From Alphaproteobacteria bacterium (GTDB taxonomy: Bacteria; Pseudomonadota; Alphaproteobacteria; UBA828), in contig JAJDUK010000035.1 in NCBI GenBank assembly GCA_022826665.1, positions 1-64,000 of the forward strand: a DNA stretch of 64,000 bases. Direction: 5' to 3'. Positions 2 through 49,734 of the stretch are shown here, in pieces. The position numbers and the translations under genes are program-made. Numbering within the stretch: position 1 is the stretch's first letter; each line of letters opens with the position of its first letter. The notes under the pieces are model-generated. The model was not told where the DNA came from, ran no database searches, and saw only the letters and a list, made by a program, of their open reading frames with translations.

Positions 2-115
2 GGCGGCATGCGCTGGACCGTCAACGGCGCCAACGCCATCATCGCCCTGCGCTGCGCCGTCGAGAGCAATCGCTTCGACGATTTCTGGGAACGGCGCGCC
101 GGCGCAGCAGCATGA
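2..115 (+). mobile_element. C-terminal end of an ISKra4-like transposase (cut by window edge)
   Basis: Frame 2 is open from the window edge to a TGA at 113-115 and gives a 37-residue C-terminus containing GMRWTVNGANAIIALR, then FDDFWERR. A Met-Arg-Trp followed by Gly-Ala-x-Ala-Ile-x-x-Leu-Arg and a closing Phe-x-x-x-Trp is the usual tail of ISKra4-type transposases, which catalyse DNA strand transfer for an insertion sequence. The rest of the gene and the left inverted repeat lie outside the window, so I cannot tell whether the element is intact. The right end of the element should fall between 116 and 241; no clear terminal repeat can be named without the left end. Family assignment is by motif memory only. 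Confidence 0.55.
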
Positions 116-9514: not shown

Positions 9515-10455
9515 TGGCGCGGGAAGAGGGCGGCGGGCGCGGCCTGTTCGCCCGCCTCAAGGCAGGACTCAGGCGCACCTCCAACAGTCTCACCGGCGGC
9601 ATCGGGGCCATCTTCACCGGCCGCCGGCTCGACGATGAAGCGCTGGAGGAGCTGGAAGAGCTGCTCATCGCCGGCGATCTCGGCGCGGCGACTGCGGCCG
9701 AGCTCACGGCTGAGCTGGCACAGCAGCGCTTCGGCAAGGAAGTGACCGCCGCCGAGGTACGCCGAGCGCTCGCCGATCAGATCGCCGACTTGCTCGTGCC
9801 GGTCGAGGGGACGCTGGCGATTGAGGAGGACGCCAAGCCCCACGTGATCCTGGTGGCCGGCGTCAACGGCACGGGCAAGACCACCACCATCGGCAAGCTC
9901 GCCCAGCGGCTCAGCCGCGACGGGAAGCAAGTCATGCTGGTCGCGGGTGACACCTTCCGCGCCGCCGCCGTGGAGCAGCTCACGATCTGGGGCGAGCGGG
10001 CCGGGTCGCCGGTGGTCGCGCGCCCCGACGGCGGCGATCCCGCCGGCCTCGCCTTCGATGCGCTCGAGCGCGCGCGGGCGGAAAGCATCGACGTGCTCCT
10101 GATCGACACCGCCGGCCGGCTGCAGAACAAGGCGCACCTGATGGCCGAGCTTCAGAAGATCGACCGCGTGCTCAAGAAGCTCGATGAGCGCGCGCCGCAC
10201 AGCCGCCTCCTGGTGCTCGATGCCACCACCGGCCAGAACGCGCTCAATCAGGTCGATGTCTTCCGCGAGGCCATCGCCGTCGACGGCCTGGTCATGACCA
10301 AGCTCGACGGCACGGCGAAGGGCGGTGTACTGGTGGCGCTGGCGCGGCGCTTCGGCGTGCCTGTGGTCGCAATCGGCATCGGCGAGGGGATCGACGACCT
10401 GCGCCCCTTTGAGGCCCGTGCCTTCGCCGCAGCCCTGATGGGACTCGACGAGTAG
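9514..10455 (+). CDS. ftsY: signal recognition particle receptor FtsY
   Basis: SRP receptor GTPase that docks ribosome-SRP complexes at the inner membrane. The ATG at 9514 overlaps the mtaB TGA (TGATG), giving 313 residues. A helical N domain (LTGGIGAIFTGRRLDDEALE...) precedes the GTPase domain with the P-loop GVNGTGKTTTIGKL, DTFRAAAVEQL, IDTAGRLQNK and the specificity motif TKLDGTAKGG. The long acidic A domain found in enterobacterial FtsY is absent and only about 20 residues precede the N domain, as is usual in alphaproteobacteria. The gene is followed at once by the structured repeat at 10463. Confidence 0.96.
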   Translation: MAREEGGGRGLFARLKAGLRRTSNSLTGGIGAIFTGRRLDDEALEELEELLIAGDLGAATAAELTAELAQQRFGKEVTAAEVRRALADQIADLLVPVEGTLAIEEDAKPHVILVAGVNGTGKTTTIGKLAQRLSRDGKQVMLVAGDTFRAAAVEQLTIWGERAGSPVVARPDGGDPAGLAFDALERARAESIDVLLIDTAGRLQNKAHLMAELQKIDRVLKKLDERAPHSRLLVLDATTGQNALNQVDVFREAIAVDGLVMTKLDGTAKGGVLVALARRFGVPVVAIGIGEGIDDLRPFEARAFAAALMGLDE

Positions 10456-10462
10456 CACTTTA

Positions 10463-10568
10463 TCGCTCACGGCAGCCGGCCTGCGGCCGGCGCCTCCGCG
10501 AGGGCGCCGCAGAGCGGCGGGCCGCGGTCGCGGCCTATCGCGAGCCCGTCAGAGACGGCCTCGCTCTA
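10463..10568. repeat. structured intergenic repeat, copy A (~106 nt)
   Basis: This segment fills the gap between the convergent ftsY and NUDIX genes and is about 84 % identical by hand alignment (about 16 mismatches and one single-base gap) to 34666-34772. It contains several inverted repeats: a 7-bp stem GCCGGCC/GGCCGGC with a TGC loop (10475-10491), a CCTC/GAGG stem around 10492-10507, GGCCGC/GCGGCC near 10520-10535, and a terminal hairpin GCGAG.CCGTC-AGA-GACGG.CTCGC (10540-10564). The last three bases, read on the minus strand, are the TAG stop of the NUDIX gene. It may be a REP/MITE-like element, a bidirectional terminator or both; no T-run follows the hairpins. Confidence 0.75.
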
Positions 10569-34611: not shown

Positions 34612-34665
34612 GCGGCTTGCGTCCTAAAACGTTTCCGTTACGCACGGAATTGCTCAAACCCTTTT

Positions 34666-34772
34666 TCGCTCGCGGCAGCTGGCCTATGGCCAGTGCCTCC
34701 GCGAGGGCGCCGCTAGCACGGCGGACCGCTGTCGCGGCCTAGAGCGCGTCCGTCGAAGACGGCCTCGCTCTA
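34666..34772. repeat. structured intergenic repeat, copy B (~107 nt)
   Basis: Second copy of the element at 10463-10568, in the same orientation and again between convergent genes with a NUDIX gene on the minus strand. The first stem is GCTGGCC-TAT-GGCCAGT (34678-34694); relative to copy A one C:G pair has become T:A, which keeps pairing. The terminal hairpin keeps CCGTC/GACGG with a GAA instead of AGA loop (34750-34762). The final CTA is again the TAG stop of the NUDIX gene read on the minus strand. The 54 bases between the MDR gene and this copy (34612-34665) hold nothing I recognise. Confidence 0.75.
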
Positions 34773-48217: not shown

Positions 48218-49734
48218 CGCTTTGCGCGCAGAACCGGTGTTCGTGAGGTTCGGTTGAGGTAGCGCCGCTGCAGGTGGGCCTTGAAGACCTCGGTGCCGAG
48301 CGGCGCGCCGGTGGCGCGTTCGAGCAGCACCGGACCCTCGTAGCGGGAGGCGAGGCCGTGAACGTTGGCCCTGAGCCACCCGAACAGGGGCGAGAAATCG
48401 CCGCGCTCGATGGCGGGCCACAGCTCAGGCTCACTCCGTGCCGCGGCGTCGAAGAATTGCGCCGCCATCAGGGCTCCGATGGTGTAGCTCGGGAAGTAGC
48501 CGAGCTCGCCGACGGACCAATGGATGTCCTGGAGGCAACCCTGCGTGTCGTTTTCCGGCCTGATCCCGAGCATGGCCTCGTGGATCTCGGCCCAGGCGTC
48601 GGGAATCTCGTCGCAGGCCAGATCGTCCGCAATCAGGGCACGCTCCAGCCGGTAGCGGAGCATGATGTGGGCAGGGTACGTCACCTCGTCGGAGTCCACC
48701 CTTATGTAGCCGGGCTCCACGCGGATCGCCTGCCGGTAGAGCGCGTCTGCGTCCGGCGTGGCAGCGCCGCCGTCGAGATGCTCTACCAGCAGCGGCGCGA
48801 GGAAGCGCATGAAGGGCCGGCTGCGGCAAGCCTGCATCTCGATCAGCAGTGACTGGCTCTCGTGTAGCGCCATGCCGCCGGCTTGGCCTACCGGCTGGTA
48901 TCGCCATTCCTCCGGCAGGCCTGCCTCGTAAAGCGCGTGGCCAGTCTCGTGCAGCACCCCCATGAGGCCGGATAGAACGTCCGTTTCGTCGTAGCGGGTG
49001 GTGATGCGGATGTCTCCGGCGCTGCCGCCGCAGAAGGGGTGGAGGCTGACGTCGAGGCGGCCGTGGTCGAAGTCGAAGCCCAGTGCCGTCATCAGGCGCC
49101 TGGCGAGGGTCTCCTGCGCGTCCACGGGGCTGCTTACCGGCGGCAGGGCGTCTGCTTCTGCCTGCGCCTCGCGCACCTGCCCAAGGAAGTCGGGGAGGAA
49201 GCCCGCGAGATCGTCGAAAAGCGGGTCGATGGTGGCGCAGCGCAGCCCCGGCTCGTAGGAATCCACCAGCCCGTCGTAGGGCGCGCAGCCGAGCGTCTCG
49301 CCCAGCGCCGCCGCCTTCTCGCGAACGAGGCCGAGTAGCGGCGCGAAGGCCTGCGCGAAGGCGGCAAAGTCGCTCGCCGGCCGGGCCTCACGCCATGCCA
49401 TCTCGCAGTGTGACGAAGCCTCGCTCAACGCCTGCACCAGATCGGCCGGCAGCGCCGCCGCCTGGCGCCAGCGCCGGCGCATGCGGGCGAGGTTGGCCCG
49501 CTGCCAATCGTCGAGGGCATCGGCGTTGGCCTCGGCCTCGTCCAGCAGGTCGGGAACGCGGGCATCGGTGAGCAACTCGTGGCGGATCAGCGCAAGCTCG
49601 GCGAGCTGTGCCGCACGGGGCTCCGCGCCGCCCGGCGGCATCATCGTCGCCCAGTCCCAGTGCAGTATCCCGGCCGCGCCGCCGAGCAGGCCGAGGCGGC
49701 GGAAGCGGGCCTCCAGCGCGGCGTAGGCGCTCAA
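48214..49734 (-). CDS. M32-family metallocarboxypeptidase
   Basis: A 506-residue thermostable-carboxypeptidase-like zinc enzyme that removes C-terminal residues from peptides. The metal site is GVLHETGHALYEAGLP (HExxH) with the third ligand in MALHESQSLLIEMQ; IRTDEITYPLHI-like RVDSDEVTYPAHIMLRYRLE and GCLQDIHWSVGELGYFPSYT are family markers. It overlaps the surf1 stop by 4 bases, so it is probably the last gene of the cytochrome oxidase operon, an unusual partner whose link to respiration is unclear. Confidence 0.94.
   Translation of the reverse strand: MSAYAALEARFRRLGLLGGAAGILHWDWATMMPPGGAEPRAAQLAELALIRHELLTDARVPDLLDEAEANADALDDWQRANLARMRRRWRQAAALPADLVQALSEASSHCEMAWREARPASDFAAFAQAFAPLLGLVREKAAALGETLGCAPYDGLVDSYEPGLRCATIDPLFDDLAGFLPDFLGQVREAQAEADALPPVSSPVDAQETLARRLMTALGFDFDHGRLDVSLHPFCGGSAGDIRITTRYDETDVLSGLMGVLHETGHALYEAGLPEEWRYQPVGQAGGMALHESQSLLIEMQACRSRPFMRFLAPLLVEHLDGGAATPDADALYRQAIRVEPGYIRVDSDEVTYPAHIMLRYRLERALIADDLACDEIPDAWAEIHEAMLGIRPENDTQGCLQDIHWSVGELGYFPSYTIGALMAAQFFDAAARSEPELWPAIERGDFSPLFGWLRANVHGLASRYEGPVLLERATGAPLGTEVFKAHLQRRYLNRTSRTPVLRAKR

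Follow-up and report, generated by a model that had tools for sequence, protein, structure and literature searches.

A folded intergenic repeat of about 105 nt in Alphaproteobacteria and its sites at gene 3' ends

Described repeats and the present locus

The Brucella repeats Bru-RS1 and Bru-RS2 are palindromic, intergenic elements of Alphaproteobacteria, similar in size to the repeat described here. Rhizobium RIME, said to have been described by Osteras in 1995, is reportedly also palindromic and intergenic, belongs to Alphaproteobacteria and is about 108 bp long. RIME and Bru-RS could be relatives of the repeat. Literature searches yielded no matching description among the papers that were read. 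In the available portion of a stem-loop catalogue, clusters of Brucella melitensis are listed without sequences (PMC2267715). Bradyrhizobium contains Br-REP1 and Br-REP2, which are REPs located between convergent genes, and the Br-REP1 region consists of three palindromes (PMC5082802). The present repeat shares the location between convergent genes, whereas the published Br-REP1 and Br-REP2 consensus sequences were not seen in it by inspection (PMC5082802).

The repeat lies in a 64,000-nt window, the whole stretch of DNA that was analysed, which corresponds to one contig (C61) of a 4.6 Mb alphaproteobacterial genome in 106 contigs. Similar to REP and BIME sequences, it is palindromic, intergenic and multicopy, forms a mosaic of hairpins and is found at the 3' ends of genes. 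In contrast to them, it has a three-hairpin core with long conserved motifs, and a Y1/RAYT transposase gene (PF01797) was found in none of eight genomes of the genus, with positive controls. The repeat resembles MITEs in being short, lacking a gene of its own, being non-autonomous and being present or absent at orthologous sites. However, copies without the upstream hairpin P1, such as copy A, have no clear terminal inverted repeats, and no clear target-site duplication is seen in the genus. Only where P1 is present do its left arm and the right arm of the terminal hairpin correspond, as CTAGAGCG../..CGCTCTAG. Because the RAYT gene is missing and copy A is without clear terminal inverted repeats and a target-site duplication, the repeat is filed neither as a REP/BIME nor as a MITE.

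Anatomy of copies A and B

Within the window, BLASTN aligns copy A (10463-10568) with copy B (34666-34772) at 83.9% identity over 112 columns (E 3e-29), in agreement with the value of about 84% from an earlier sequence-only reading. The compensatory change that this reading placed in the first stem is present in the letters of both copies: the H1 stem is GCAGCCGGCCTGCGGCCGGCGCC in copy A and GCAGCTGGCCTATGGCCAGTGCC in copy B, with a C:G pair replaced by T:A and the outer G:C by G:T. CCGTC/GACGG is the same in both copies and the loops are AGA in A and GAA in B, also as previously noted. The segment 10463-10568 was correctly positioned but slightly too short, as the element of copy A spans approximately 10456-10568 and copy B has an upstream hairpin in addition.

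In order, the element comprises a T-rich lead, for example CACTTTATC, then GCTCACG with the H1 stem, CTCCGCGAGGGC with the H2 stem, and GGGCCGCnGTCGCGGCC (H3); its terminal hairpin follows the pattern GCGnnTCCGTC-loop-GACGGAnnCGCTCTA. It is about 105 nt long, and its core of 72 nt consists of the three hairpins H1-H2-H3. In copy A, which lies on the plus strand, the lead (10456-10464) directly follows the TAG stop (10453-10455) of an ftsY-like gene; such a lead stands before GCTCACG in almost every copy. H1 (10463-10501), of the form CGC(TCAC)GGC-stem-GCC(TCC)GCG, contains an internal loop that is conserved, and is followed by H2 (10505-10519) and the nearly invariant H3 (10520-10535), GGCCGC-GGTC-GCGGCC. 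These three hairpins are indicated by the predicted fold and by class-wide covariation, and the terminal hairpin (10540-10564) by the fold and by covariation within the genome. The NUDIX gene on the minus strand has its TAG stop (10566-10568) within the 3' end of the element, CTCTA. The cores of copy A (10459-10536) and copy B (34662-34740, plus strand) score 88.1 and 84.4 bits, respectively, with the covariance model R1. A weak match to the model, with 21 bits and an E value of 0.07, occurs on the minus strand at 48738-48804 and is either a decayed copy or chance.

The terminal hairpin of copy B (34740-34772, plus strand) is TAGAGCGCGTCCGTC GAA GACGGCCTCGCTCTA. Upstream of its core is a degenerate P1 (34630-34653, plus strand), CGTTTCCGT..ACGGAATTG, recognised from its sequence. 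Intact P1, CTAGAGCGTTTCCGT..ACGGAAACGCTCTAG, is an optional hairpin, similar in kind to the terminal one, located just 5' of the lead in many copies. It was also considered as an abundant free-standing repeat and rejected, as a strict pattern finds four only, of which at least three adjoin cores. Some copies (L015/L036; L016-L020 and L023-L030) carry an additional GC-rich hairpin module of about 27-31 nt, of which there are two kinds; it lies inside the loop of H1 or, at CCGCG^AGGGC, between H1 and H2. Fold prediction for single-stranded DNA gives exactly four hairpins in copy A. The single-sequence energies are only moderately better than those of dinucleotide shuffles (copy A, DNA z -2.35 and RNA z -1.81; copy B, z -2.65).

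Conserved fold and distribution of the family

In the source genome, BLAST with copy A gives 51 matching pieces, comprising 30 retrieved places and further fragments, so that at least 30 places carry the repeat and copies A and B are not its only members. Duplication of the flanking NUDIX genes was rejected as the origin of the pair, as the two genes match only at a BLASTP E value of 3.8 and the genes beside eight other copies are unrelated. The repeat is present in all seven other genomes of the genus. Diverged forms, whose core stems differ yet still pair, occur in one further genus of the family and in a second family of the order. At E<=1e-3 with strict filters, R1 matches 31 of 386 genomes of the class. 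In a phylum-wide draw, whose class make-up was uncounted, 13 of 397 genomes match and all 13 belong to the same class. Carriers are scattered patchily over some fifteen families, in several of which the core is repeated in tandem with periods of about 103-117 nt (L225, L122, L140 and L150). No Rfam covariance model matches, relaxed thresholds included, and BLASTN against a plasmid collection gives no match. With the published repeats that were compared also giving no match, the earlier statement that no repeat name can be assigned holds.

A core-motif pattern scan of public genomes returned at least 114 stretches. Since the motif letters are constant by the design of the search, the stems alone count as evidence. 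Among the matches listed, 93 core matches retain the context GG(G/A)CC(A/G)CnGTCGCGGCC, and where titles were examined these come from alphaproteobacterial or unclassified bacteria; Actinobacteria and Variovorax are among the chance matches. In 34 divergent cores from across the class, 92.8% of the cells pair. Cells changed on both sides number 105, against 39±5 in shuffles (0 of 500 as high) and 11-23 with slid partners. Counted by pairs that show any double change, the cores have no excess (10 against 8.8 in shuffles). The terminal hairpin, compared among copies of the source genome only, has 19 cells changed on both sides where shuffles give 4.7±1.8, and double changes affect 5 of its pairs where shuffles give 1.9 (0 of 500). 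H3 itself shows a compensatory change from GGCCGC/GCGGCC to GCCCGC/GCGGGC in one distant lineage that was reached by R1 outside the search pattern. The repeat is thus a family with a conserved fold. Covariation is present in both the core and the terminal hairpin, and the selection on structure proposed from the two copies is borne out by statistically strong compensatory change, both within the genome and class-wide.

Sites at gene ends, mobility and competing explanations

Gene settings were taken from a simple codon-usage gene caller, for 35 rows representing 34 distinct copies of the genus (L018 appears twice). The setting is convergent in 23 rows, tandem in 6 + 4 and divergent in 2, and no copy lies inside a gene. 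The proportion of convergent pairs, 23 of the 34 copies, exceeds the baseline of 9 of 56 in the window (Fisher p 1e-6). In about a dozen copies, the right-hand gene has its stop codon at the identical place in the terminal CTCTA. Part of this exactness arises because convergent genes in this compact genus can be almost contiguous, with 3 nt between them at the empty copy A site. One copy adjoins a DDE_3 transposase gene (L011:1626-2192); no such gene was seen beside the other copies that were inspected.

Ten copies in Rhizobiales-type genomes (L064, L136, L137, L154, L052, L054, L123, L131, L153 and L198) begin 8 nt, once 9 nt, after a tRNA CCA on the same strand. The tRNA genes ahead of them are for Ser, Ala, Phe, Tyr, Leu or Asp. 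In four of the ten tRNA-linked loci tested, the tRNA end and its T-run are copied at core_end+27..29, and these copies resemble direct repeats flanking an insertion.

The copy A site at the ftsY-like/NUDIX junction is empty in five relatives (G001, G002, G003, G005 and G007). The junction reads GACGAATAGCTCTAGCGGCG in G001 and GACGAGTAG-CACTTTATCGCTCACG..CCTCGCTCTAACGGCG in the source genome, while a sixth relative, G006, has unrelated-looking filler there. The copy B site is occupied by P1, core and terminal hairpin in the source genome and by a perfect terminal hairpin alone in G005; it is empty in G004 and G007. This lone hairpin could be what a deletion left behind, and the change may have run in either direction. 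The site of L023 is likewise empty in its counterpart L060 in a relative. At an orthologous intergenic spot of two species, the element is present in opposite orientations (L021 and L079). L015 and L036 represent one inherited orthologous copy, with an extra H1-loop hairpin in just one of them. No clear target-site duplication was found at copies A, B and L023. Single sites may represent remnants of excision or deletion. Taken together, the differences in presence, orientation and modules are not easily accounted for by vertical inheritance alone. As judged from these sequence comparisons, mobility of the repeat is strongly supported; the empty sites in relatives represent gain or loss of copies and favour the palindromic mobile element family that had been suggested.

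The repeat is therefore probably a non-autonomous mobile mosaic element, REP/BIME/MITE-like, which inserts at gene 3' ends. Its folded strand would be recognised by a recombinase or transposase acting in trans, with the hairpins as the recognition signal. Such an enzyme would place new copies where genes end, immediately behind the stop codon or the tRNA CCA, and insertions at other places are presumably purged. Candidates for the mover were looked for in the eight genus genomes. A RAYT/IS200 Y1 transposase was rejected, as it was found in none of the eight. IS110 is present in five and absent from three, including the source genome, and reverse transcriptase domains were found in three and not in the other five. 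Neither is present throughout the genus, and both were rejected as partners. The broader proposal is held tentatively, with somewhat less confidence than doubt: that structured mobile elements of about 105 bp extend across the class, insert at 3' ends in a fixed phase to the tRNA CCA, duplicate the tRNA end, and have a mover other than Y1, a reverse transcriptase or IS110.

A rather unlikely alternative, the best of those weighed, is a host-maintained 3'-end element spread by recombination, with hairpins for termination, processing or mRNA stability that insulate convergent genes and end tRNA transcripts. It would account for the location between convergent stop codons and exactly after the tRNA CCA, for a fold under compensatory selection, and for the parallel that the 3'-UTR REPs of Bradyrhizobium are transcribed (PMC5082802). 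However, close relatives retain the genes at orthologous sites without the repeat, only 31 of 386 sampled class genomes match R1, and copy A has no intrinsic-terminator pattern, i.e. no GC stem directly followed by a T run. A host role at transcript ends is nevertheless possible and is compatible with mobility: by analogy with REPs in other bacteria, the inserted hairpins may have an effect where flanking transcripts end.

A structured RNA gene family, in which every copy is a transcribed ncRNA, is improbable. Letters of the internal loop and the H3 loop are conserved beside the stems, partly fixed by the search pattern, and the covariation is deep, as expected of such a family. On the other hand, the copies are dispersed and variable, their sites are empty in relatives, no promoter-like match was found near copy A, and G.U-type changes favour neither strand once stem-1 pairs whose register is uncertain are set aside. 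A.C exceeds G.U in the stems by 77 to 28 overall, an excess due mainly to a few of these stem-1 pairs, and without them the count from the per-pair table is 24 A.C to 19 G.U, so that 77:28 is an uncertain sign of strand preference. Very improbable is a retro-element in which the minus strand would be a folded RNA, A-rich at its 3' end, that is reverse-transcribed at transcript 3' ends: the minus strand does run through hairpins to GTGAGCG and an A-rich stretch, the copies do lie after transcript ends and A.C is in excess, but that excess comes mostly from the same few stem-1 pairs and reverse transcriptase domains were not found in five of the eight genus genomes.

The results bring GC-rich intergenic repeats dispersed over many Alphaproteobacteria together as one family that shares a covarying fold, and whose consensus and covariance model can now be searched for. 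If RIME belongs to the same family, the repeat is a known family seen class-wide. A question that can be tested is how, without a Y1 transposase, an element of 105 bp is brought precisely to the ends of tRNA genes and protein genes. The annotation of gene ends would improve, and caution is advised against naming such copies as separate small RNAs.
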